DNA from: Micromonospora polyrhachis | GTDB taxonomy: Bacteria; Actinomycetota; Actinomycetes; Mycobacteriales; Micromonosporaceae | NCBI RefSeq assembly: GCF_014203835.1 | Contig: NZ_JACHJW010000001.1 | Location: 2,926,501 to 2,990,500 of the forward strand | DNA: 64,000 nt | Direction: 5' to 3' | In this document: positions 50,055 through 62,828 of the stretch, piece after piece | Layout of the letters: each line of letters starts with the position of its first letter | Position numbering within the stretch: the first letter of the stretch is position 1 | Program-made: the position numbers and the translations under genes | Notes under the pieces: generated by a model | What the model was told of the DNA's origin: nothing | Seen by the model: the letters and a program-made list of their open reading frames with translations, nothing else | The model's database searches: none

Positions 50055-52547
50055 TCACCGGCGTCCCGGCTCGATCAGACTCGACAGCGGCAGGTCGATG
50101 TGCTTGGCCCGTTCCCGCCAGGTGCCCTCGTCGGCGAAGAGCACCCGGTTGACGGTGGTCCGCTCGAAGGAGCGCCGGGGCAGCAGCATCGACACGCCGT
50201 TCGCCAGCAGCTCAGGAAGCCGGGACCGCACCGAGGTGAAGCCGGCCAGCCCGGCTGCGCTCGCGGCCACGTCGATGGCCCGGTTCGTGCCGACGTGCAG
50301 TTGCACCAGACGCTGTCCCGGCACCACGGGTGGCCGGCGCTGATGGAGCGTTAGGTAGTCGCCGTCCAACGCGGCCGGCGACTCCGGAATCACCGCCCAG
50401 GCCCGGGCACCCCGGGCGGTACGCGGCCAACGCACCACCTCGTTCGGCAGGCCGTCCGTGCCGTGCCGCGCCCCGGTGCAGCGCAGCGTCAGCGGTGTGC
50501 CCGGCAGTTCGGCGTACTGCTGCGGATGGCCCGCCTCGTCGACCAGGTAGCCCGCTTGTAGACGCGCCTGGTCGAGCCAGCCGGCCGGCAGTAGAAAAGT
50601 CTCGGACGAGGTGACCAGATGCCGCAGGTCGGCCGGAATATCGACATCGGCCTGGCTGAGGTCCACCGCGCCGCCGGCCTCGACCCGTAGGCAGATCAGG
50701 TGGCGCAGTGGATGGCTGCGGGCCAGCCGCTCACCGTCCAGGATCCCGAGAAGGAACAGGTCAGCAGCCGGTGCACCCTCCGCCGCGACCCGCTGCGGGG
50801 ACCACTCGCTGATAATCCACAGCCGGATTGGTTCGGCGTTCACGCCCGGACGCTCGGGCAGCCAGCGCACACCGTGCGGCCGGGTGTTCCGGGCCGGGCT
50901 GACCAGTGCCGGACGGGGACTCGCCGGGGGCAGCACTGTGGTGTCCGGTGGGGGTAGCGACGTGGTCGGTACGGCTGGTGGTGTCGGTACCGGCAGCAAC
51001 GTGGGGGCGTCTGGACGCCTCGGGATCAGCCAGCCGTCGTCGTTGCGCCAACGAGGTTTCTCATCGCCCGGCGCGATCCTTGCCCATCGTGCCGGGCGAT
51101 GGTGCTCGTCGACCGCGCGCGCCAGGCCGTCCTGGGGCATCACCGTGCTACCGGGGGTCAGTGTCCAGATCTCGACGTTCAGCTCGTCGGCGAGCACGGT
51201 CAGGTGTTCCCGAAGTCCAGCAGCCCGTTCGGGGGCGACCTGGGTCAGCAACATCAGGTCCTCGCCCTGCCAGCCGGCCCGGTCGAGGTGGCCCCGGAAC
51301 TCTGTCGGGCCGACGGCGAGGTAGCTGTCGTCGGTGTAACGCAGGGCCAGCCGCCCGTCCTCCAGGACGGTGAGGTCCAGCAGGAACATTCCCGGCTCGC
51401 TGGAGAGTTGCGCGTACCGGTCACGCAGCGCGTTCTCGCGGGTCCGGTCGACACTGATCAGCCTTACCTCCCCGGCGGTCTCGGTCACCGGGCCGCCCTG
51501 GGGCACCAGCCGCCCGTCCCGGTCGCTGACGAAGCGCGCCGACTCGGTCATGCCCGGCGGGCGGTACTCCCGCCACTGGTCGCCCCGACCATCCCGGTCC
51601 CGGACGCCGAGATCGAGACAACCCTTCAGCAGTACGGCCATGCCGCCCGGCGCGGGGGTCCAGATGCTGGCCCCGGTCGCCAGGGCCAATTCCTGCAACT
51701 GTTCGTCGAGCTTGGGCTGTTCGGCGGGATCATCCGGCCAACGAAGCCACAGCCGCAGATCACCACCGTAGAGGTCGATCGAGGAGAGTGCCGCCGCCAC
51801 ATCACGCCCGCCGCGGACGGTCTGGGATGGCCCGGTCGTGTCAGCGTCGTACACGGAAAGCAGGAAGCCACCGGACCTGCTGGCCAGGGCCGCGGTCACC
51901 AGCTCGGGATGACCCACGCCGAGCCGGGCGGCGGCGGCCCGTCGGACGACGAAGTCCTCCCGGTTGGCGAACTCCAGCCCATCAGGCAGCGGGAGGGTCA
52001 CCACTCCGGTGCGGTTCAGGACCAGCCCGCCGACCAGGTCGAACCACCCGGGCAGCGAGGTACGCAGCGCGCTTGGCTGGATCAGCATCCAGTCCACGAC
52101 GTTGCCGCTGGCTCGGTCGACCGGCATGACCTCCACGGCTTCGTCGCGCGCCGCACCGGCCGGGCCTCGCAAGGTGGCGCCTAACGGTGTCACCAGAATG
52201 TCGCAGCCCAGCTGGTCCGCGACGAGACCAAGCAGTGGCGCGTTGCGGGCACCGTCGTCGACGAGGATGCGCAGATCGCGGCCGATGGCACCGGAGGCCT
52301 GTGCGAGTTCCACCAGTTCATCCACGCCGAGTGCGACACCGGCTTGGGCCGGGCTGGCCAGGCCACCGTCTGCGGCGCGAACAAGCCGAAGGTCACACAG
52401 CCCTTCGACGGGCAGTGGAGCATCCCGCGCGAACTCCTGATGCGCGGACCCCTGATGCGCGGACCCCTGATGCGCGGACCCCTGATCGCCGGCTGGCTCG
52501 TTCGAGGCGACCCCGGACGCACGGCTGGCTCGCAACGTTCCTCGCAT
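50055..52547 (-). CDS. Large soluble protein with a triplicated module, function unknown
   Basis: The 830-residue product has no signal or membrane helix. Three stretches share one pattern of the form DLRxL...L..L...LG..IW.P.PG: about residues 91-127 (DLRILVDDG, CDILVTPLG), 270-315 (DLRLWLRWPDD, ASIWTPAPGG) and 428-470 (DLMLLTQVAPE, VEIWTLTPGS), so a module is triplicated. A Pro-rich linker (530-570) leads to a fourth region (RPHGVRWLPERPGVNAEPI; ADLFLLGILDG). Residues 20-37 are a repeat of QGSAH encoded by three 15-base copies. It lies 106 bases after the LysM-like gene and is probably co-transcribed. I do not recognise a family. The start codon is uncertain because no strong ribosome site is seen. 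Confidence 0.72.
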   Translation of the reverse strand: MRGTLRASRASGVASNEPAGDQGSAHQGSAHQGSAHQEFARDAPLPVEGLCDLRLVRAADGGLASPAQAGVALGVDELVELAQASGAIGRDLRILVDDGARNAPLLGLVADQLGCDILVTPLGATLRGPAGAARDEAVEVMPVDRASGNVVDWMLIQPSALRTSLPGWFDLVGGLVLNRTGVVTLPLPDGLEFANREDFVVRRAAAARLGVGHPELVTAALASRSGGFLLSVYDADTTGPSQTVRGGRDVAAALSSIDLYGGDLRLWLRWPDDPAEQPKLDEQLQELALATGASIWTPAPGGMAVLLKGCLDLGVRDRDGRGDQWREYRPPGMTESARFVSDRDGRLVPQGGPVTETAGEVRLISVDRTRENALRDRYAQLSSEPGMFLLDLTVLEDGRLALRYTDDSYLAVGPTEFRGHLDRAGWQGEDLMLLTQVAPERAAGLREHLTVLADELNVEIWTLTPGSTVMPQDGLARAVDEHHRPARWARIAPGDEKPRWRNDDGWLIPRRPDAPTLLPVPTPPAVPTTSLPPPDTTVLPPASPRPALVSPARNTRPHGVRWLPERPGVNAEPIRLWIISEWSPQRVAAEGAPAADLFLLGILDGERLARSHPLRHLICLRVEAGGAVDLSQADVDIPADLRHLVTSSETFLLPAGWLDQARLQAGYLVDEAGHPQQYAELPGTPLTLRCTGARHGTDGLPNEVVRWPRTARGARAWAVIPESPAALDGDYLTLHQRRPPVVPGQRLVQLHVGTNRAIDVAASAAGLAGFTSVRSRLPELLANGVSMLLPRRSFERTTVNRVLFADEGTWRERAKHIDLPLSSLIEPGRR
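52437..52481. repeat. Three exact 15-base tandem copies in a coding region
   Basis: CTGATGCGCGGACCC is repeated at 52437, 52452 and 52467 without change. On the coding (minus) strand this gives the QGSAH repeat near the N-terminus of the 830-residue protein. Copy-number change would keep the reading frame. Confidence 0.88.
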
Positions 52548-52653: not shown

Positions 52654-54282
52654 TCACTGTTCCACGGATGCCGTTGCTGCCGCCGACGCCGCCGCTGCCG
52701 GCTCGCCTAGCCGGAGCGACCACCGTGCGGCGGGGCCGTCTCCGATGACCACCGGGACGAGATGCTCCTGGGACGGTCGCGCCGACCGGCGCACCCGCCG
52801 CAGTGCGGCCACCTCGGCGGGCGCACACACCAGTACCCGAATGCCGGCCACCGGGCGGTCCGCCGCCAGGTCCGCCACCGCTGCGATTCGGCGTACTCCG
52901 GCGGGGAGCGTCTCCCCCAGCACATCGCCGGCCACCACCACATCCGCTCCGGACCGGCGCAGTTGGGTAAGCAGCGCAGCACCCTGCCGGCGTACGGCGG
53001 CCGGATCGCCGCCGATGGTCAGCGCGTCGGGGGCCAGCGCCAGGTCGACCCACAGCCGGCGCTCCTGGTGCTCACCGAGTACCAGGGGAACACCGGACGG
53101 CGGCGGCTCATCCTGCGGACCGAGCCACCCGTACGCCGATCCCCATCGGAGGGCTCGGGTGCCGATCAGTCGTACGGTTGCCCGTTCGGAGCCGCAGGTC
53201 AGCTCGGCATCGAGGATCGGAAACCAGTTGGGGCTCGACGGTGCTTCATGCCCACCCGCACTGGCGTCCCGGCCCGCCGCGAGCGCGGGCAGCGAGATCG
53301 CGATCGTGGGGGACGCAACCCGCAGAGCGGCGTAGGCGGCTTTCTCAGTAACCGCTTTCTCAGTCGCTGCCGAACCATCTGCCGCCTTCTCAGTCGCCGC
53401 TTTCTCAGTCGCTGCCTTCTCGGTCGCTGCCTTCTCGGTCGCTGCTTTCTCAGTCGCTGCTTTCTCAGTCGCTCCCGAACCCGCTGCTGGTGCGGCCGGG
53501 GCCACCGCTGTTGCGGGCACCGTCATCGCCGATCCTGCCGCAGATGTCGATGTCCCAGGAGGAGCCGGCACCGGTCCCTTGCGCCCGGCGCTGGTGGTGG
53601 CGGTGGCCGTGGCGGCGGTGCTGACGGTGGCCGTGGACAAGGTCTCGGATACCGCCTGCTTGGCCCCGACGATGGTGGGGGTTGCCGTTGCCGCCGGGGC
53701 GGATTCGTGCGCCGATCCAGGTTGCTGGGCCGGCACCGTGGCCAACCGGTGGCTGCGTCGTGAGCGCAGCGTCAGCGGACCGCCGAGCAGCATCAGGACG
53801 GCCAGCGCGAGCACCGCGAGCCAGAGCTCAGCCGACGTCCAGAGCCGCGACAGCGCTGCTGTCGAGCCGCCGTCGTCAGCCAACCCTCCGGACGGACGCA
53901 GACTGCTGGTTGTGGCGTCCGTGGACGGGGACGGTTGCACCGAGGTTGGCGACACGGTTGGTAACGGCCCACTTACCACGCCGGATCCCTTGGCGTCCTT
54001 CGGCAGCGCGAGAAGCCATCCCGGCTCCACAGTGGTTGGGCTGGTCATGCGCTGGCCGTCCGGCTGTAGTCGGCCCTCGTTGAGTTCGAAAATCTCCATG
54101 TAGCGCCTACCGTCGCCCAGGGTGGTGGCGGCGATGGCGAAGAGATACTCCCGCTGGCCGTTGACCGGCGGGCCGACCACGTAGTACTTGCCCGTCCCCT
54201 CCTCGGCGGCTTGCGCCGGCGCGGGCGCAGCCACCAGGAACAGGGCGGCGACGAGGCCGAGCACCGCCATGAGTCGTGTCAT
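52654..54282 (-). CDS. LysM-like (KYYxV) domain membrane protein with EKAAT repeats
   Basis: I use ATG 54282 (AAGGA nine bases upstream; a GTG at 54300 is possible), giving 542 residues. A signal peptide (1-26) is followed by a LysM-like module (about 30-98: GKYYVVG, IAATTLGDG, ELNEGRLQPDG, GWLLALPKDA) and a Ser/Thr/Pro spacer. One membrane helix lies at about 153-172 (AELWLAVLALAVLMLLGGPL), then about 370 cytoplasmic residues. The latter include an EKAAT repeat tract (about 268-312) and a C-terminal alpha/beta-like domain (GAALLTQLRRSGADVVVAGD) that resembles the module tripled in the next gene. It is divergent from the anti-sigma gene and likely part of the same envelope system. Confidence 0.78.
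   Translation of the reverse strand: MTRLMAVLGLVAALFLVAAPAPAQAAEEGTGKYYVVGPPVNGQREYLFAIAATTLGDGRRYMEIFELNEGRLQPDGQRMTSPTTVEPGWLLALPKDAKGSGVVSGPLPTVSPTSVQPSPSTDATTSSLRPSGGLADDGGSTAALSRLWTSAELWLAVLALAVLMLLGGPLTLRSRRSHRLATVPAQQPGSAHESAPAATATPTIVGAKQAVSETLSTATVSTAATATATTSAGRKGPVPAPPGTSTSAAGSAMTVPATAVAPAAPAAGSGATEKAATEKAATEKAATEKAATEKAATEKAADGSAATEKAVTEKAAYAALRVASPTIAISLPALAAGRDASAGGHEAPSSPNWFPILDAELTCGSERATVRLIGTRALRWGSAYGWLGPQDEPPPSGVPLVLGEHQERRLWVDLALAPDALTIGGDPAAVRRQGAALLTQLRRSGADVVVAGDVLGETLPAGVRRIAAVADLAADRPVAGIRVLVCAPAEVAALRRVRRSARPSQEHLVPVVIGDGPAARWSLRLGEPAAAASAAATASVEQ
53340..53475. repeat. 15-base tandem repeats encoding EKAAT
   Basis: Units such as TTTCTCAGTCGCTGC and its CTTCTCGGT variant run head to tail, interrupted once. 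On the minus strand they encode alternating charged and Ala/Thr residues likely to form a helix or flexible stalk inside the LysM-like membrane protein. Confidence 0.85.
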
Positions 54283-54540
54283 CGTGTGATCGTCCTTCAC
54301 CGAGGGAACCGAGGGCTTGCCGACGCCGCACTGAGAAGTTCGATCTGGGTTTCAATCCGGCGGGCGTGAACCAGGGTCCGGACCTCCTCGTTCAAGTGGT
54401 GTTCTCGCGAGCGATGGAGGCGAAATGAGGCAAGTCTTCCCCGTCTCCGCGCCGCGTTGTCGAGACCGCCGACGCTGCCGATTGAGGGACATCGGAATGT
54501 TGACACGTCACACCAGGCGACCGCCCGGGTTACGCCCGGA

Positions 54541-55485
54541 ATGAGTCTTCCCACCTGCGGCGACCCACCCATGCGGACCATGGTCGGCTTCCTCGTGCTC
54601 GACCGACTCTCCGACAGCGAACGTAGCACCGTCGAGTTCCACTTGGACAGTTGCCAGTCCTGCCGGACGGAACGGGATGCCGCAGACCGCGTCGTCGCGG
54701 CACTGAGCCTGTTGACCCCCGAGGACGCTCGAGCGCTCATTGACGAGTTCGCCGTCGACCCGGCTGCCGCACCGTCCACCGCCGTGATGACGGACCACCT
54801 GTTCACCGCTCCAGGAGCGGAACCCGCCGTGCCCACCCAGGCCACCGCCGCGCCGTCGCCAGCGGTGACTCCCGATGGCCGCAGGCCGCGCCGCTCACCG
54901 GCGGTCGACCGGGCGGAGGACCGAAAGCCGCACGGCGCCGACCGCCACCGCTCGCCGCGCGTCGCAGTGGGCTTCCTGCCACCCCGGCCGACTACTGGCC
55001 CACTCTCCCGGGGCCCGCACACCCATCGATCCCGGCGGAGCCGCCGTACGGTACGAGCGGCACTCGCGGCCATCGGCATGGCGATCGTCATTGGCGCTGG
55101 CTTCCTCTTCGTACCGACCGACTCGATCAGGCACCCGGCCCCGAGTCCCGTAGTGGCGGTCGCCTCCACTCAGGACGTGCTATCCGGAATCCAACTGACG
55201 GCAGTCATATATGGCGGCGAGGAAGGAGCCCGCGTCCGACTCACCGTGACTGGGCTTGGCATATACACTCCCTGCCAACTGTTTGCCGTCACCACCGGCG
55301 ATGTGGAACTGGCCCTCGGCGAGCTGACTGGCGGAGACGACATTGCACAGTATGTGGGCATCGTCACCATCCCGGTCGACCGTCTCCGGTCGTTCAGTGT
55401 CAGGCAACTGGACGGCACCGTCGTGGTGGAGGCTGACGTCGTACATGGCTCACCCAGCGCATCCAGAGACCCGGCACCCGAGTGA
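54541..55485 (+). CDS. Zinc-finger anti-sigma factor-like membrane protein (copy 1)
   Basis: From ATG 54541 the product is 314 residues. A ZAS-type zinc motif is at H34-x3-C38-x2-C41 (EFHLDSCQSC). A long charged linker (75-175) and one membrane helix (about 182-203, LAAIGMAIVIGAGFLFV) follow, then an outer domain (205-314) with beta-strand character (VRLTVTGLG, SFSVRQLDGTVVVEADVV). The layout fits an inner sigma-binding part and an outer sensor. The outer domain matches that of the second anti-sigma-like protein at 58154 in order and spacing. It lies just upstream of the ECF sigma gene, the usual partner, although in most systems the sigma gene comes first. ATG 54571 is an alternative start. 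Confidence 0.78.
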   Translation: MSLPTCGDPPMRTMVGFLVLDRLSDSERSTVEFHLDSCQSCRTERDAADRVVAALSLLTPEDARALIDEFAVDPAAAPSTAVMTDHLFTAPGAEPAVPTQATAAPSPAVTPDGRRPRRSPAVDRAEDRKPHGADRHRSPRVAVGFLPPRPTTGPLSRGPHTHRSRRSRRTVRAALAAIGMAIVIGAGFLFVPTDSIRHPAPSPVVAVASTQDVLSGIQLTAVIYGGEEGARVRLTVTGLGIYTPCQLFAVTTGDVELALGELTGGDDIAQYVGIVTIPVDRLRSFSVRQLDGTVVVEADVVHGSPSASRDPAPE

Positions 55486-55574
55486 GCCGCACCGACATGC
55501 GAAGATCAACTTGCACTTCGGAAAAGTCCTGTCGACTGGTGAATTTCGCCGCCAGAACGGCCATCATCGTTTCC

Positions 55575-56132
55575 ATGGATCCGGCCACGGGGTACACGGT
55601 GCCTGAGGAGTTGTCGCCCACTCCCACCGATGAGCAGGCCCTGCGGCTCGCCTACCAACAACACGGTCCGGTCCTACTCAACTACCTGCTGCGACTGACC
55701 AAGGGAAACCGCGGCATGGCAGAGGACATCGTGCAGGAAACACTGGTCCGAGCCTGGAGCCACCCGGAGGCACGCACCAACGACGGCCAGTGGAGCCGAG
55801 CCTGGTTGTTCACCGTGGCCCGACGCATCGCCATCGACCACATCAGAGCGGCGCAGCGGCGGCCCGTCGAGATGCCCGACGAGCGAATCGATGACCATCA
55901 GAGCTTGGACGACGACATCGAGCGGCTGCTCAACGCCCAGGAGGTCCGCGAGGCGGTGGCCAGGCTGCCCGAGCGCCTGCGCAGCGCTCTGATTGAGATC
56001 TACTTCCAGGAGCACTCGGCCGCCGAGGCGGCGGAGAATCTGTCCGTTCCGATCGGCACGGTGAAGTCGCGCACCTTCTACGCGCTACGCGCCCTACACA
56101 AGGCGCTGATCGAACGGGGCTTTACGTTTTGA
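55575..56132 (+). CDS. ECF-type RNA polymerase sigma factor
   Basis: The 185-residue product has sigma region 2 (about 25-95: LNYLLRLTKGNRGMAEDIVQ, ETLVRAWSH, WLFTVARRIAIDHIRAAQRR) and region 4 (about 120-180: LPERLRSALIEIYFQEHSAA, SVPIGTVKSRTFYALRALHK). Region 3 is absent, which defines the ECF group. The frame is open to a GTG at 55482 that overlaps the anti-sigma stop, but that extension looks non-coding, so I use ATG 55575; the start is uncertain. It sits between two anti-sigma-like genes and ahead of a mycosin-like gene. It probably controls this envelope cluster, possibly including its own transcript. Confidence 0.87.
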   Translation: MDPATGYTVPEELSPTPTDEQALRLAYQQHGPVLLNYLLRLTKGNRGMAEDIVQETLVRAWSHPEARTNDGQWSRAWLFTVARRIAIDHIRAAQRRPVEMPDERIDDHQSLDDDIERLLNAQEVREAVARLPERLRSALIEIYFQEHSAAEAAENLSVPIGTVKSRTFYALRALHKALIERGFTF

Positions 56133-56250
56133 CCGGCACCGGTCACCCGACAAGTGGCGCGGCCATCTGCGCCACCCCCGACGCGGTCGTGAACTCGGCA
56201 CCCGACGTCGTCCTTCGCGGCACCCCCGGGTCGGGAGGAAGCAACCAACC

Positions 56251-56364
56251 ATGACTAGGGCATCGACGATGACGGCTGGCAACACTTCACAACGCACTCG
56301 CGAAGGCCTGACGAGGCTTGTGTACGACTACGCGGAGGACCAGAAGTGGTCGGTGATCCGATGA
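56251..56364 (+). CDS. 37-residue peptide coupled to the mycosin-like gene
   Basis: An ATG preceded by GGGAGGAAGCAACCAACC opens a 38-codon frame that ends in TGA overlapping the ATG of the next gene (ATGA). The peptide starts MTRASTMTAGNTSQRTREGL and ends DYAEDQKWSVIR. It is hydrophilic, without a membrane segment. The strong ribosome site and the stop-start overlap are good evidence for translation, either for a functional peptide or as a leader that couples ribosomes to the mycosin-like gene. No family is recognised. The 118 bases before it (56133-56250) hold no gene. Confidence 0.6.
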   Translation: MTRASTMTAGNTSQRTREGLTRLVYDYAEDQKWSVIR

Positions 56365-57965
56365 GTGCCAGAATCCGGCGTACGGTGCGGGTACGACATG
56401 GCATCCTTGCTGCCCTGCTGGTGGCGTTGGGAATAGTCACGGCAGCCCCCACCCCGGCTGTCGCAGCCGACGAGTACCTCAAGTACTACACCGTCAAGGC
56501 TGAGTATCAGGGTGCTCCGGAGAACCTTCGCGCAATCGCGATGCGGCTCCTGGGCAGCGCGAACCGGGGCATGGAGATCTTCAACCTCAACGTCGGACGC
56601 ACCCAGCCCGACGGTGCGGCCCTGTCCGATCCGACGGTGCTACGCCCCGGCTGGCACCTCGTCCTCCCCTGGGACGCCGTCGGCACCGAAGTGCAGTACG
56701 GCCTCCTGCCGAAGACCACGCCGGGGTCGGCCCCCGGCGGCACACCGGCGCCTGGCACGAGCGCCTCCGCGAGTCCTGGCCAACAACCCGGGACGACCGG
56801 TGGAAGCCCAACGCCCTCCGGTGGGTCGACGCCAAGCGGGCGCAACTGCGTCAAGGCGACTGCGGCCAGTGATTCGTCCAACTGGGCAATGGTGCGGCTC
56901 GCTCCCGAGCAGGCATGGACGCGCAGCCGTGGCCGGGGGCAACTGGTCGCGATCATCGACTCCGGGGTCGACGGCACCCTCGAACAACTGCGCGGCCGGG
57001 TCTCGGTCGGTGCGAACATCGTGACCGGCGGCCACGGCAACGCCGACTGTCTGGGATCCGGCACGGCGATGGCAGGGCTCATCGCAGCTCAGTCGGCCGG
57101 CAACGGTGGCCCCGCCGGTGTTGCGCCTGAGGCGGTCGTCATGCCGGTACGTGTGGCGACGGACTCTCCCAAGGTGAGTGCGGCCAACCAGGCCACCGCG
57201 ATCGAGGTGGCGGTCTCCGCGGGTGCGACCGTACTCGCTCTCGGGGCGTACCTCGACCCCGACGACCCCACCGTCGCGCAAGCGATCAAGTTCGCGGTCG
57301 ACCAGGGCGTCGTCGTGGTGGCCGGAGCACCGGTGACCGGCACGACGAATGAGCGGGCGGGCCTCCCCGACGAGGTGATCCGGGTGGCCGGGGTAGGAGT
57401 TGACGGCAGGCCTGCCGACAACTACGTGACCGGAGCGATCGACGTCGTAGCGCCGGGGGTCAACGTGACCAGCGTCGGCATCGCTGGCACCAAGGGGTTC
57501 GTCGGCAGCGGAACCCAGTACGCGGTCGCGCTGGTGGCAGGCGAGGCGGCTCTGGTGCGCTCCGCGTACCCGGATCTCAGCCCCGCCCAAGTCGCGAGCC
57601 GCATCGAGATGACCGCCGATTCCATGGGCGAAGCCCAGCCGGACGGACGGTACGGATACGGAATGATCAATCCGGCGACGTCGGTGACGAGGGAGCTACC
57701 CGCAGAGGCGCAGTCGACCACCTCGGGGGGTCAGTCTTCGACGGACCCCGATGGTTCCACCGATAGCAAGCGTCTGCTGTTCCTGTTTCCGATATTCGCT
57801 GTGCTCGCCCTGGCCGCCCTGCTTGCCTTCCGGTTGCGGCGAGTACTGCACGGAAAACGCGGTGGCGACGACCAGGTACCTGACGAAACTGAAGACACAC
57901 CCGCTCCGGTCTCCGCCGGGCAGCAGCCATCTGATTCGGACGAGGAGGGTAAATCGCGCTCATGA
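56361..57965 (+). CDS. Catalytically degenerate mycosin-like subtilase with LysM-like domain (copy 1)
   Basis: From the ATG that overlaps the small upstream ORF, the product is 534 residues. A signal peptide (1-36) is followed by a LysM-like module (about 39-117, YLKYYTVK, FNLNVGRTQPDG, GWHLVLPWDAVG) and a Pro/Ser linker. An S8 subtilase domain follows (about 165-445), then a C-terminal membrane helix (about 471-491). The S8 part matches mycosins of type VII secretion (WTRSRGRGQLVAIIDSGVDG; two Cys at 163 and 230). Asp200 is kept, but the catalytic His position is Ser233 (DCLGSGTAMAG), the Ser position is Gln386 (GSGTQYAVA), and the oxyanion Asn is missing. It is probably a non-proteolytic structural or sensing protein in the outer membrane-wall zone. 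Confidence 0.85.
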   Translation: MSARIRRTVRVRHGILAALLVALGIVTAAPTPAVAADEYLKYYTVKAEYQGAPENLRAIAMRLLGSANRGMEIFNLNVGRTQPDGAALSDPTVLRPGWHLVLPWDAVGTEVQYGLLPKTTPGSAPGGTPAPGTSASASPGQQPGTTGGSPTPSGGSTPSGRNCVKATAASDSSNWAMVRLAPEQAWTRSRGRGQLVAIIDSGVDGTLEQLRGRVSVGANIVTGGHGNADCLGSGTAMAGLIAAQSAGNGGPAGVAPEAVVMPVRVATDSPKVSAANQATAIEVAVSAGATVLALGAYLDPDDPTVAQAIKFAVDQGVVVVAGAPVTGTTNERAGLPDEVIRVAGVGVDGRPADNYVTGAIDVVAPGVNVTSVGIAGTKGFVGSGTQYAVALVAGEAALVRSAYPDLSPAQVASRIEMTADSMGEAQPDGRYGYGMINPATSVTRELPAEAQSTTSGGQSSTDPDGSTDSKRLLFLFPIFAVLALAALLAFRLRRVLHGKRGGDDQVPDETEDTPAPVSAGQQPSDSDEEGKSRS

Positions 57966-58066
57966 TCGGCATGTCGACCGGCTTGATCGAGCTGAAGCGA
58001 ACCTTCGAGAACCGACCGTGGCGAGCCGACTGCGCTTCGCGGGATCTCGCGGTCCCCAGCTCATGA
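57962..58066 (+). CDS. Possible 34-residue ORF overlapping the mycosin-like stop
   Basis: An ATG overlaps the stop of the mycosin-like gene (ATGA), with GAGGAGGG 12 bases upstream, and opens 35 codons (MIGMSTGLIELKRTFENRPW...). The spacing is long and the codon bias only moderate. It may be a coupled small protein or chance. The remaining gap to 58154 contains a GAGGA ribosome site for the next gene. Confidence 0.3.
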   Translation: MIGMSTGLIELKRTFENRPWRADCASRDLAVPSS

Positions 58067-58153
58067 CTTGGACCAATAGACTACGCGCATCCGTCCTGAC
58101 GACACGCGGGATAGTCGCACGGCGGGCGGGGCGGATTTGAGGACTGGTGTGTC

Positions 58154-59092
58154 GTGGATGACTCCGAGGACAACGAGCAGCATGTCCGGTCCTCACTCGG
58201 CCTGTATCTGGCGGGCGCGGTATCTGGCGACGAACAGACGCGCATCGAGGCACACCTGACCGACTGCGAAGAGTGTCTGGGCGAGGCCGACGAGCTTAGC
58301 CAGGTGGTGGCCGCACTGGCGCTGCTGACCGAAACGGATCGGCGGGAGTTGGTCGCGCAGTTCGGTACGCACAAGTCGCGGGAGGCACCGGCGGGCCCGG
58401 CAGGTCCTCCGTCCAGTAGCCCGCAGCCCGGGGTTGGGTCGTCCCCATCCTCGCCGCAGCCATCGACCGGCTCAGGCCACCACCCGACCAGCTCAGGCCA
58501 CCACCCGACCAGCTCAGGCCACCACCCGACCAGCTCAGGTCCCCGCCCGACCAGCTCAGGCCACCGCCCGACCAGCTCAGGTCCCCGACGGCAACCGGCG
58601 GCGCGAACCGGTCCGCCCCGGGGTCCCAGCTCAACCGGCCGCAGACGATCCCGCTATTTGCTCGTCCTCGCGGGAGTGGCGATACTTCTACTGCTGTCGA
58701 TCGGCATATGGGGTCGGTCCGCCCTCGACAAACCGCCACCCTTGCCCAACGAAGTCACGCTTGTCGCTGACGCCGCCGACCGGTCTACTGGTGCCTCGCT
58801 GTCGGTGGTCGTCGTCGACGACGGGCAGAGCGACCGGGCCGCTGTCCGTGCCACCGTCATGGGTCTGCGGCCGGGACAGCTTTACCGGCTCTACGCGACC
58901 GACCGGGACGGTCGGATATGGGAGTTGGCCGTGCTGACGGGTAGTGACGGACCGCAGGAGGTCGAAGCCAACTGCCCGGTTCCGCTCGACGCACTGGCTC
59001 GATTCAGCGTTAGCGGGCACGACGGTGCGCTCGCCGTGCAGGCCGATGTCGTCGACCCCGCATCGCCGTCACCAGCAGAGGCCCCCCGCTGA
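58154..59092 (+). CDS. Zinc-finger anti-sigma factor-like membrane protein (copy 2)
   Basis: A GTG start with GAGGACTGG upstream gives 312 residues. The ZAS motif is at H34-x3-C38-x2-C41 (EAHLTDCEEC), the same positions as in copy 1. A linker with six SGHHPTS-type repeats (about 106-150) leads to a membrane helix (about 172-193, YLLVLAGVAILLLLSIGIW). The outer domain (200-300) parallels copy 1 (VRATVMGLRPGQLYRLYATD, ARFSVSGHDGALAVQADVV). Two anti-sigma-like proteins around one ECF sigma factor suggest two inputs to one regulator or a duplicated module in which one copy has a new partner. Which one binds the sigma factor cannot be told. Confidence 0.78.
   Translation: MDDSEDNEQHVRSSLGLYLAGAVSGDEQTRIEAHLTDCEECLGEADELSQVVAALALLTETDRRELVAQFGTHKSREAPAGPAGPPSSSPQPGVGSSPSSPQPSTGSGHHPTSSGHHPTSSGHHPTSSGPRPTSSGHRPTSSGPRRQPAARTGPPRGPSSTGRRRSRYLLVLAGVAILLLLSIGIWGRSALDKPPPLPNEVTLVADAADRSTGASLSVVVVDDGQSDRAAVRATVMGLRPGQLYRLYATDRDGRIWELAVLTGSDGPQEVEANCPVPLDALARFSVSGHDGALAVQADVVDPASPSPAEAPR
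58477..58588 (+). repeat. 21-base tandem repeats in the anti-sigma linker
   Basis: Five to six copies of a 21-base unit containing CCACCCGACCAGCTCAGG encode SGHHPTS or SGPRPTS. The unit length keeps frame, so the linker length between zinc finger and membrane helix can vary. Confidence 0.85.
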
Positions 59093-59096
59093 GCGG

Positions 59097-59330
59097 ACCC
59101 GGTACGGGCTGGGTCTGCAGCGACACCTGATTGGCGGCTGCCCACCCGTCGGGTCGTGATCGTAGCGCTGGCTACACCAGCAGTTTCCAGTACAGGGATC
59201 GATAGTTCGCCCTTTTGGGGACATGCTGGGACACGTCCGTTTCCTCACCGCGCTGCTTGGCGGCGAGCTACTCAAGCCCGAACAGCTGAAACAGATGCAG
59301 ACGGCCGAACGCGTTACTGAAGGCCGATCA
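59097..59330 (+). pseudogene. Remnants of a class C beta-lactamase/serine hydrolase gene
   Basis: Two fragments look like pieces of one penicillin-binding-like serine hydrolase. Bases 59097-59157 read RYGLGLQRHLIGGCPPVGS before a stop. Bases 59199-59325 read GDMLGHVRFLTALLGGELL followed by KPEQLKQMQTAE. Both phrases are typical of the C-terminal half of class C beta-lactamase-like proteins (GDM..., FF.ALLGG.LL.P.QL..M, YGLGL), but their order here is the reverse of the usual one and no catalytic SxxK or YxN part remains. The likely explanation is decay with rearrangement. The region otherwise holds only the terminator below. Confidence 0.5.
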
Positions 59331-59360
59331 TCCAGCAGGGGAACCAACTGTAGGGACCAT

Positions 59361-59408: not shown

Positions 59409-60512
59409 TCAGCCGGTGTTTCCTCGGGTGCGCGACGGCGCCCCGATGATGGCGGTGACCGCCGGGTGCCGCGGGGTGTCCGGAACGTGTGCCGGGCGAC
59501 TGGTTGCGAACTCGGCCCGCAGCACTGGAAGTACCTCCGCGCCGAGCAGTTCGAGCTGCTCCAGCACCGTGCCCAACGGCAGGCCGGCATGGTCGATCAG
59601 TAACAGCTGACGCTGGTAGTCGCCGACGTACTCCCGGAAGCCGAGCACCCGGTCGATGATCTGCTGCGGGCTGCCCACCGTCAGCGGCGTGGTGGAGCAG
59701 TATTCCTCAAGGGACGGGCCGCGACCGTACACGGGTGCTCGGTCGAAGTAGGGCCGGAACTCACGGATCGCGTCCTGCGAGTTGCGGCGGACGAAGACCT
59801 GCCCACCCAGGCCGACAATCGCCTGGTCGGCATCGCCGTGGCCGTGAGCCGCGAAGCGCTCCCGATACAGTGCGACCATCCGACGGGTGTGCTCCGGTGG
59901 CCAGAAGATGTGGTTGGCGAAGAACCCATCCCCGTACATCGCCGCCTGCTCTGCGGTTTCCGGACTGGTCACCGCTCCATGCCAGACGAAGGGCGGCACC
60001 CCGTGCAGAGGACGCGGCACGGAGGTGAAGTCGGTCAGCGGAGTGCGATACTCACCGGACCACGTCACCGACTCCTCGCGCCAGAGCCGGCGCAGCAGGG
60101 CATAGTTCTCGGCGGCCAGCGGTTGGCTGTCCTCGGGCCTCTTGCCGAACCGGGGAAAGACCGCGCCAGAGTTTCCGCGCCCCATCATGAGGTCGACCCG
60201 GCCGCCCGCGAGGTGTTGCAGGACGGCGTACTCCTCGGCCACCCGGACCGGGTCATTGGTGGTGATCAGGGTGGTGGCCGTACTCAGCGTCAGCCGGTGG
60301 GTCCGGGCGGCGATGGCCGCCAACAGAACCGCCGGAGCTGACGACACAAATGGCGGATTGTGGTGCTCGCCGGTGGCGAACACGTCGAAGCCGGTCTCCT
60401 CGGCGCGGACCGCGATCGCGGTAATGGCGGCGATCCGCTCGTGTTCGGCGGGCCCGCGTCCAGTGGTCGGATCAGGTGTGATGTCACCGACGCTGTAAAC
60501 CCCAAATTCCAT
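59409..60512 (-). CDS. LLM-class flavin-dependent oxidoreductase
   Basis: The ATG with CGGGAGGGCAC upstream gives 367 residues. The TIM-barrel luciferase-like family is shown by MEFGVYSVGDITPDP at the start, ERIAAITAIAVRAEETGFDV, FATGEHHNPPFVSSAP with the family His pair near 50, LGRVD-type LAGGRVDLMMGRGNSG near 112, and PPFVWHGAVTSPETA. Members use FMN or F420 for monooxygenation or hydride transfer. The substrate is not evident. The gene interrupts the envelope cluster on the opposite strand and probably has nothing to do with it. Reading frame upstream of the ATG to 60938 is not used. Confidence 0.9.
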   Translation of the reverse strand: MEFGVYSVGDITPDPTTGRGPAEHERIAAITAIAVRAEETGFDVFATGEHHNPPFVSSAPAVLLAAIAARTHRLTLSTATTLITTNDPVRVAEEYAVLQHLAGGRVDLMMGRGNSGAVFPRFGKRPEDSQPLAAENYALLRRLWREESVTWSGEYRTPLTDFTSVPRPLHGVPPFVWHGAVTSPETAEQAAMYGDGFFANHIFWPPEHTRRMVALYRERFAAHGHGDADQAIVGLGGQVFVRRNSQDAIREFRPYFDRAPVYGRGPSLEEYCSTTPLTVGSPQQIIDRVLGFREYVGDYQRQLLLIDHAGLPLGTVLEQLELLGAEVLPVLRAEFATSRPAHVPDTPRHPAVTAIIGAPSRTRGNTG

Positions 60513-60710
60513 GTGCCCTCCCGGGACGAACTCCGCCTCAGCGATAGAACGGCCGGCGGGGTGCGCCGGTTCAGCGGATCCGATGTGCTCCTCGGCAGAG
60601 TTCGGAGCGGGCATGGCACCGGAATTGGCGGGACGAAGCGTGAACCAAGCCGTCGTCCGCCCCGTCTCTAGCGAGACGGCCGTTGGCGACCATAAAGGTG
60701 AGAGACGCGT

Positions 60711-62828
60711 ATGTCCTGGATCAGACGAACGACACGACGTGTCGCCCTCGCCGCTGGGGTAGCCGCGGCACTGCTGGGCCTGTCTGTCCCATCGGCATCC
60801 GGGAAAGCCGGCGGAGAGTACGTCAAGTACTACGCCGTGACCTCGAGCGACCGGAATCTCACCGGGATCGCGGATCGTTTGCTCGGCGACGGTTCCCGGT
60901 CCGGAGAACTGTTCAACCTCAACGCCGGCCGTAGACAACCGGACGGCATGGCGCTGACAAACCCGGCACGACTGAACGCCGGCTGGCTGCTGGTGCTGCC
61001 GTGGGACGCCGTCGGTGCCGGCGTCCAGTACGGTCTCCTGCCCGACCAGCCCCCGGTGACCGCGAAGCCCAGCACGACGCCAAAGGCCAGCACGTCACCG
61101 AAGACCGGTACGACCAAGCCCGACCCATCCCAGTCCAGCACCCCGCCAAAGACCGACAACCCGGCCAAGGCGGGAGGGTGCACTACCGCTGCGGCGTCTA
61201 CTTCCGGTTCGAACTGGGCCAGCCTGCGGCTCGCCGCTGAACAGGCGTGGCCGCAGAGCCGGGGAGCGGGCCAGCTCATCGCGGTGATCGATTCCGGCGT
61301 CGACGGTGCCCTACCGCAACTGACCGGCCGCGTCGAGGGGGGAATGGACATCCTCACCGGCAGTGGCCGCGGTGACACCGACTGCCTCGGCTCTGGCACC
61401 GCCATGGCCGGCCTGATCGTCGCACAGCCGACCAAGGGCGGCGCGGTGGCGGGCATCGCTCCCGACTCCATCGTGCTGCCCTTGCGCGTCGTCGACAAGG
61501 ACGCCCAGGCTCGGCCCGCCGATGGCGCTGCGGCCATCGAGGCGGCGGTGGCCGCCGGGGCAACCGTCATCGCGATCGGCCCGCACGTCGATCTCAACCA
61601 GGTGGAGGTGGCCAAGGCCGCCAACGCCGCGGTCGAGAAGGGCGTGGTGGTGGTGGTCGGAGCCGCGCTCAGCTCGGTCCCGGTCAACCCGGCCGCCCGG
61701 CTCGGCGAGGGCGTGCTGCGTGTCGGCGGAATCGGGATAGATGGCCAGGTGGCCGACAACTACCGACGGGGTGGCATTGATGTGGTGGCCCCCGGGGTCA
61801 ACGTCAGCAGCATCGGTATCACCGGTACCGGGCCGATAGCCGGCAGCGGCACGCACTACGCCGTCGCCTTCGTCGCGGGCGAGGTGGCCCTGGTCCGGAC
61901 GGCCTACCCGGGGCTCACCCCGCAACAGGTAGCGCACCGGGTGCGGAAGACCGCCAAAAGCCTGGGCAACGGCGTCGTCCCCGACGACCAGTACGGCTGG
62001 GGCCTCATCGACCCGGCCGCGTCGGTTTCCACGGTGCTGCCCGAGGAAACCCACACCGAACCGGCGGGCGGGGACGCGAGCGCAGCCGGTCCGACCACAC
62101 CGAGCGGCCAGACCACGCTACTGGTGATCGTCACGCTGGTCGCCCTCGCGGCCGTGGTCCTGCTGCTCTTCCGGATCCGGCGGCTGGTGGGGGCCAACAA
62201 GCCCGATGATCCGGCCGGCGGGATCCCACGGCGCACGACCGAGCCAGTCATCGACCGATCCGACGACGTGCCGCCGGCCGGCCCGCCAGCCCCGCCAGGC
62301 CGGCCCATTCCGGCCGTCAAAACCGAACAGGCCGTCAAGACCGACCAAGCCAACCAGACCGACCAAGCCAACCAGACCGACCAGGCCGTCAAGACCAACC
62401 AGGCCAACCAAGCCAACCAGACCGACCAGGCCAACCAAGCCAACCAGACCGACCAGACCGGTCGGCCGACAGTCAGCCTGGCGGCCAGGCCCAGCGGCGG
62501 CTTGTCCCGGCCGTCCACGGACGCCCGTGCCTCCGTGGACGAGCCGACCGGGCGAGCCCGAGCGAAGGACACCGAGGCCATGATGGCCGGCCAGCCCGCC
62601 GGGGCCGATACCGCAACCGGCACCCCCGCCACCGCTGCGGCGGCAACCCCCGCCACCACCACCGCTGCCGCAGGCAAGTCGACCAGCGCAGCCCCCGCCA
62701 CCGCTGCGGCGGCAGCCCCCGCCCCCGCTGCCGCAGACAAGTCGACCAGCGCGGACAAGGCGACGATCGCTGACAAGGCGACCGCTGGCGCCAAGTCGTC
62801 CGCCCCGGCCCGGTCCACCGATGAGTGA
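60711..62828 (+). CDS. Catalytically degenerate mycosin-like subtilase with LysM-like domain (copy 2)
   Basis: The ATG with AAGGTGAGAG upstream gives 705 residues. The order is signal peptide (1-30), LysM-like module (about 36-111; YVKYYAVT, FNLNAGRRQPDG, WLLVLPWDAVG), a Lys/Pro/Thr linker, an S8 domain (about 160-445), a membrane helix (468-488), and a cytoplasmic tail of 215 residues. The tail is rich in repeated NQTDQA and in Ala/Thr. Mycosin-type features are RGAGQLIAVIDSGVDG with Asp194 kept and Cys157/Cys225. The His position is Ser228 (DCLGSGTAMAG), the Ser position is His382 (GSGTHYAVA), and the oxyanion Asn is replaced (VVGAAL). It is a paralog of copy 1 and also expected to lack protease activity. 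It overlaps the golvesin-like gene by eight bases. Confidence 0.85.
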   Translation: MSWIRRTTRRVALAAGVAAALLGLSVPSASGKAGGEYVKYYAVTSSDRNLTGIADRLLGDGSRSGELFNLNAGRRQPDGMALTNPARLNAGWLLVLPWDAVGAGVQYGLLPDQPPVTAKPSTTPKASTSPKTGTTKPDPSQSSTPPKTDNPAKAGGCTTAAASTSGSNWASLRLAAEQAWPQSRGAGQLIAVIDSGVDGALPQLTGRVEGGMDILTGSGRGDTDCLGSGTAMAGLIVAQPTKGGAVAGIAPDSIVLPLRVVDKDAQARPADGAAAIEAAVAAGATVIAIGPHVDLNQVEVAKAANAAVEKGVVVVVGAALSSVPVNPAARLGEGVLRVGGIGIDGQVADNYRRGGIDVVAPGVNVSSIGITGTGPIAGSGTHYAVAFVAGEVALVRTAYPGLTPQQVAHRVRKTAKSLGNGVVPDDQYGWGLIDPAASVSTVLPEETHTEPAGGDASAAGPTTPSGQTTLLVIVTLVALAAVVLLLFRIRRLVGANKPDDPAGGIPRRTTEPVIDRSDDVPPAGPPAPPGRPIPAVKTEQAVKTDQANQTDQANQTDQAVKTNQANQANQTDQANQANQTDQTGRPTVSLAARPSGGLSRPSTDARASVDEPTGRARAKDTEAMMAGQPAGADTATGTPATAAAATPATTTAAAGKSTSAAPATAAAAAPAPAAADKSTSADKATIADKATAGAKSSAPARSTDE
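62325..62460 (+). repeat. Degenerate repeats encoding NQTDQA in the mycosin-like tail
   Basis: Units of 9 and 18 bases based on AACCAGACCGACCAAGCC repeat about eight times. The encoded tract is Gln/Asn/Thr-rich, cytoplasmic and probably disordered. Unit length preserves frame. Confidence 0.85.

Follow-up and report, generated by a model that had tools for sequence, protein, structure and literature searches.

Gene content of the locus

The window, as we call the whole stretch of DNA that was analysed (64,000 nucleotides of the Micromonospora polyrhachis genome), contains one gene for an ECF sigma factor (SIG) set between genes for two paralogous ZAS anti-sigma proteins (AS1 and AS2), in the company of two mycosin-like genes. 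The genes of the locus are:

50055–52547, minus strand: protein of 830 aa, family unknown; synteny kept in relatives
52654–54282, minus strand: secreted or membrane protein, divergent from AS1, with a LysM-like N-terminal domain as in MYC1 and MYC2
54425–54544, plus strand: leader ORF of 39 codons, its stop overlapping the AS1 start
54541–55485, plus strand: AS1, ZAS anti-sigma protein, 314 aa; start set by orthologue alignment
55575–56132, plus strand: SIG, SigL-like ECF sigma factor, 185 aa; ATG start kept in orthologues (MDPATG)
56361–57965, plus strand: MYC1, pseudo-mycosin (His to Ser, Ser to Gln) with a LysM-like N-terminal domain
58154–59092, plus strand: AS2, second ZAS anti-sigma protein, 312 aa; layout as in AS1
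59409–60512, minus strand: LUX, Bac_luciferase-family monooxygenase
60711–62828, plus strand: MYC2, second pseudo-mycosin (His to Ser, Ser to His) with a LysM-like N-terminal domain

The plus strand thus reads AS1, SIG, MYC1 and AS2; LUX follows on the minus strand, between AS2 and MYC2, and MYC2 is again on the plus strand. The ATG at 56251, which a sequence-only reading had taken as a gene start, begins an ORF of 37 codons that is in a different frame, and MYC1 most likely starts at the ATG at 56361. In place of the leader ORF, relatives carry one or two small EspC/WXG100-like genes; the window locus lacks these, as well as the relatives' ricin-type lectin gene. Between AS2 and LUX, a short ORF at 59223–59346 resembles a fragment of a serine hydrolase/carboxypeptidase and, judged by eye, may be a gene remnant.

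SIG and an exceptional gene order

An ECF sigma factor is usually accompanied by one neighbouring anti-sigma gene. SIG is such a factor, with sigma regions 2 and 4 (PF04542, 56.5 bits; PF08281, 44.4 bits; both above cut-off) and no region 3. Its best solved match is Mycobacterium tuberculosis SigL (E 4e-38; PDB 6dv9; 3hug), while the best solved match of the anti-sigma profile is RslA (E 1e-6). Its closest paralogue in the genome is 43% identical and lies ~340 kb away; the locus itself holds no other sigma gene, and the single sigma gene between two anti-sigma genes reported from the sequence alone is therefore real. Elsewhere, ECF sigma factors are encoded near 234.6, 804.8 and 2640.9 kb of the genome.

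How unusual is this arrangement? In a survey of related ECF sigma loci from many actinobacteria, which left the closest relatives outside, a ZAS gene lies directly 3′ of the sigma gene in 77 of the 80 loci among the matches listed; of the remaining three, one has no detected ZAS gene and the other two are cut off by the end of a contig. Elsewhere in the window genome, every one of the seven other ZAS genes (7/7) adjoins an ECF gene of its own. Because the surveyed loci and these seven genes follow the usual pairing, the layout described here is exceptional, and AS1, as had been proposed, does reverse the common order by preceding its sigma gene.

Could AS2 belong to another sigma factor? As to an orphan ECF factor matching the second copy, several ECF genes of the genome have no adjacent ZAS gene; all of the other ZAS genes are paired. 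The unpaired ECF genes are candidate partners in an alternative in which SIG answers to AS1 alone, AS2 controls an ECF factor encoded elsewhere, and its position is historical; relatives and promoters, discussed below, bear on it further.

AS1 and AS2 share one anatomy

Each protein consists of an N-terminal cytoplasmic anti-sigma domain (residues ~9–70 in AS1, ~4–73 in AS2; nucleotides 54541–54780 and 58154–58390), a membrane helix (~166–189 and ~166–184) and an outer domain (~203–304, eight-stranded, and ~200–302). The HxxxCxxC residues H34, C38 and C41 are common to both and invariant in an alignment of 19 proteins, which upholds the earlier observation of ZAS residues at identical positions; the single membrane helix and alignable outer domains also stand, since the structure models agree and the outer fold is the same. 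Both models predict a four-helix anti-sigma domain (helices 9–19, 25–37, 39–56 and 60–70 in AS1; 4–19, 25–37, 39–56 and 60–73 in AS2; pLDDT mostly 84–96). The N-terminal four-helix and the eight-strand outer domains are modelled confidently, the membrane helix only weakly. By its spacing from the motif, C6 of AS1 might be a fourth zinc ligand, and so might H10 of AS2, the comparison being His25–His50 of RslA (PMC2877774).

Both outer domains come nearest in fold to a Cu,Zn superoxide dismutase that lacks the metal loops (Z 12.5 for AS1, 11.9 for AS2). We read this likeness as a shared beta-barrel and not as a sign of enzyme activity, and consider matches to spliceosomal, mannosidase and fibronectin folds generic to beta-sandwiches. 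Against the RskA_C outer domain (PF10099, cut-off 29.4 bits), AS2 scores 19.3, below the cut-off, and AS1 gives no match. The AS2 linker (58470–58590), a low-confidence region of the model, carries tandem seven-residue repeats of Thr-Ser-Ser-Gly-His-His-Pro and variants thereof.

AS1 and AS2 are 31% identical over nearly their full length (E 5e-22), and in the 7.15-Mb single-contig genome each is the other's only relative at that level. Whole-gene dN/dS values among close relatives are 0.37–0.44 for AS1, 0.32–0.56 for AS2 and 0.02–0.10 for SIG, with 0.15–0.53 over the anti-sigma domains; by these values, both AS1 and AS2 are maintained as proteins. No signal of within-genome co-adaptation was seen: anti-sigma domains of AS1 and AS2 from the same genome are no more alike than cross-genome pairs, a comparison of low power given the few independent genomes.

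The two proteins differ in their match to Pfam zf-HC2 (cut-off 22.2 bits): AS2, at 34.9, is well above, and AS1, at 21.7, just below. This, together with the placement of AS1 ahead of its sigma gene, would suit a scheme in which AS2 is the real brake and AS1 has become a modulator by drift, whether as activator, as SIG chaperone or, like YhdK with YhdL, as a partner of AS2 that cannot inhibit alone. However, all AS1 orthologues keep the H/C/C residues and most retain the predicted fourth helix.

Occurrence across Micromonosporaceae

In the tree, SIG forms one clade (12 rows, support 100/100), and AS1 (9 rows, 100/98) and AS2 (11 rows, 98/99) form separate clades, a split that points to an old duplication whose products have been kept distinct. 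The family members G012 and G167 carry sigma sequences that match loci in Actinocatenispora rupis and Jidongwangia harbinensis without a difference. Among the SIG-bearing genomes, AS1 and AS2 occur with a single sigma factor in the window genome, G046, G006, G161 and G331, which represent four genera of Micromonosporaceae. The two-anti-sigma layout is thus conserved across several genera and is not a local oddity.

Some loci make do with one inhibitor. AS2 is the sole anti-sigma found in the SIG locus of three genomes of another genus (G034, G078 and G120), which argues against AS2 serving only a sigma factor encoded elsewhere and, as these genomes retain SIG in the absence of AS1, is what a modulator role of AS1 would allow. 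Such a role is nonetheless very unlikely: G129 has AS1 alone with SIG, and in L077 a close sister of the AS1 clade stands alone, directly 3′ of its own sigma gene. Similarly, an AS2-like protein is encoded directly 3′ of its own sigma gene in L072.

The loss of either AS1 or AS2 in some genomes, along with their common domain order and predicted folds, could also mean that the two are redundant copies which receive no separate signals and only raise the inhibitor dose. We regard this as unlikely, because the duplication is old, the clades are distinct at only ~30% identity, and both proteins have been retained in relatives of four genera.

A sister set of loci (G326, G276, G164 and G353) has one sigma factor and the order sigma, anti-sigma, mycosin, anti-sigma around a pseudo-mycosin; in G326 the first anti-sigma gene spans two frames. 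In the sister loci L168, L169, L171 and L173 the second anti-sigma protein is long (~376–553 aa), and its anti-sigma domain is followed by a conserved PPAFP stretch.

Three genomes of one genus (G097, G083 and G066) add a second ECF gene directly after AS2:

L064, 3707–4204: extra ECF gene after AS2
L065, 11394–11894: extra ECF gene after AS2
L066, 11220–11720: extra ECF gene after AS2

In none of the three was a ZAS gene of its own found near the extra ECF gene, or a SIG-type promoter before AS2. With no ZAS neighbour of its own, the extra ECF factor might be served by AS2, whose partner may have changed in these genomes. This is an argument for assigning AS2 to a sigma factor other than SIG, but the added gene falls in an unrelated clade and does not occur in the two remaining genomes of that genus; for the former reason, we reject it as the original partner of AS2.

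SIG-type promoters

The sequence TGAAC(C/A)-N16-CGTT, presumably akin to the SigL promoter, precedes the AS1-SIG operon throughout the SIG clade (12/12 genomes); in most relatives, 28–31 nt separate it from the first ORF. A matrix trained on the relatives only was then run over the window, where it gives:

54367–54392, plus strand: P1, TGAACC-N16-CGTT, promoter of the AS1-SIG operon; 25.6 bits, the top score of the window
56190–56215, plus strand: P2, degenerate TGAACT-N16-CCTT, ~35 nt before the ATG at 56251; 12.4, weak
60548–60573, minus strand: P3, TGAACC-N16-CGTT, 35 nt before LUX; 17.8
60641–60666, plus strand: P4, TGAACC-N16-CGTC, 44 nt before MYC2; 14.6
58064–58089, plus strand: decayed site, TGACTT-N16-CGCA, ~65 nt before AS2; below the reported matrix scores and recognized by position only

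Run over other actinobacterial loci totalling 1.35 Mb, the same matrix finds 8 sites scoring at least 17.5 and 23 scoring at least 14.5, so P2, P3 and P4 carry weight by their positions and not by score alone; P2, for one, sits where relatives have a strong site ~35 nt before a lectin-mycosin operon. A promoter motif shared by four starts, as the sequence-only reading anticipated, is therefore present in part: strong before 54541, good before 60711, degenerate before 56251 and not convincing before 54282. The sole minus-strand match that could serve the last (12.0) overlaps P1 and arises from its symmetry, and was rejected. LUX is a probable member of the SIG regulon; a homologue, 66% identical, lies near another SIG-family sigma gene in L079 (10816–11820).

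What drives AS2? In five genomes (G046, G006, G078, G034 and G331) a good SIG-type site is found 61–69 nt upstream, suggesting that SIG probably both activates AS2 and is restrained by it as its second inhibitor. Since its own site has decayed in the window, AS2 may here depend on read-through from MYC1. The want of a good site in the window would be expected if AS2 answered to an ECF factor encoded elsewhere, but the fixed distance of the site in five relatives speaks for a link to SIG, and overall that alternative seems quite unlikely.

Pseudo-mycosins and the type VII secretion setting

Over the protease domain, MYC1 and MYC2 resemble the ESX mycosins, matching TIGR03921 at ~210 bits (209.6 and 207.3). 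They differ from them in that the scores fall below the cut-off of 278.75, the catalytic Asp is kept while His and Ser of the triad have been replaced, and a LysM-like N-terminal domain is added. The loss extends across the family: in the orthologues examined, the Ser is gone in every case and the His in almost every one. Five ordinary mycosins encoded in the same genome keep Asp, His and Ser, and in several close relatives an active-looking mycosin is also encoded after AS2.

Downstream of the window lie genes for FtsK_SpoIIIE (EccC; 304.6 bits), YukD (EccD-like; 57.6 bits) and WXG100 (53.9 bits), and EccC is present in the loci of most relatives. By this gene content, the AS1-SIG-AS2 unit is part of an ESX/type VII secretion locus. 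Neither this setting nor the lost catalytic residues of the two S8-type proteins had been noticed in the sequence-only reading. What might dead mycosins do there? In mycobacteria, mycosins are reported to stabilize the membrane complex of ESX systems, and secretion does not require MycP1 to be active as a protease (PMC5082899). A structural or sensing role of the pseudo-mycosins would therefore be reasonable.

A model for the AS1-SIG-AS2 unit

Taken as a whole, the evidence is likely explained by a regulatory head of the ESX locus in which two anti-sigma proteins attend one SIG and are linked to it by promoters. Of this, the gene and protein anatomy, its conservation and the motif of the promoters are observed. 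From the co-occurrence of AS1 and AS2 with the SIG clade, their mutual replaceability (SIG survives with either) and the shared promoter, we infer that both bind SIG, and that SIG reads the TGAACC-N16-CGTT promoter. The original proposal of two sensors for one sigma factor is thus well, though indirectly, supported as to the two anti-sigma proteins. As to two signals, it is more guarded: with one outer fold but ~30% identity, different ligands for the outer domains of AS1 and AS2 are plausible, no more.

In the most likely scheme, SIG would drive its own AS1-SIG operon and, through promoters of the same type, nearby genes that make up part of the secretion locus, while the membrane proteins AS1 and AS2 would both hold it off. 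The two inhibitors might divide the labour by position: (i) AS1, first on the SIG transcript, would let SIG meet a partner while it is being made; and (ii) AS2, ~2 kb further on and behind a SIG-type promoter of its own in several relatives, would act as a second, inducible brake, closing a feedback loop. SIG would be released when the outer domain of each anti-sigma protein senses something in the envelope; a plausible cue would be the state of either the secretion apparatus or the dead mycosin encoded between AS1 and AS2. A stricter version is a self-contained secretion-state checkpoint in which the dead ESX mycosin is the ligand of both anti-sigma proteins, whose outer domains differ, and in which SIG is freed, and the locus induced, only if AS1 and AS2 each signal that assembly or secretion is as it should be; this is decidedly unlikely.

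Comparison with known systems

We know of no case of two zinc-finger membrane anti-sigma proteins flanking a sigma factor in a type VII secretion locus, and a search of the open-access literature on type VII secretion with ECF and anti-sigma factors, or on mycosins with Micromonospora, returned nothing on such a locus. Two anti-sigma proteins per ECF sigma factor are already known. A naturally conserved pair of inhibitors, one encoded in the sigma operon and the other, in relatives, behind a feedback promoter, offers a clean system for the study of how one sigma factor integrates two signals, and a way to ask how two diverged anti-sigma domains retain a common partner. The locus further hints at the way in which type VII secretion loci of bacteria other than mycobacteria could be controlled, and yields a short list of predicted target promoters.

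Among solved structures, SIG and the anti-sigma profile come closest to SigL and RslA of Mycobacterium tuberculosis, the latter a membrane-associated ZAS anti-sigma of SigL (PMC2877774). The ZAS residues and the membrane association are common to both systems, whereas SigL-RslA is described as having one anti-sigma per sigma and the present locus has two, one before SIG and one ~2 kb after it. In Bacillus subtilis, the ECF factor SigM is under two membrane anti-sigmas, YhdL and YhdK (PMC6827917), as we infer for SIG; unlike AS1 and AS2, however, these act as one complex, with neither a zinc-finger paralogue pair nor a secretion locus described. Sinorhizobium meliloti RpoE2 has two anti-sigmas, RsiA1 and RsiA2 (PMC8103513), which are likewise a paralogous pair for one ECF sigma factor, one encoded in the sigma operon and the other elsewhere, but are NepR-type proteins in a PhyR partner switch and not ZAS membrane proteins. 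With RpoE2 and SigM as precedents, AS1, AS2 and SIG would thus represent a variant of a known design.
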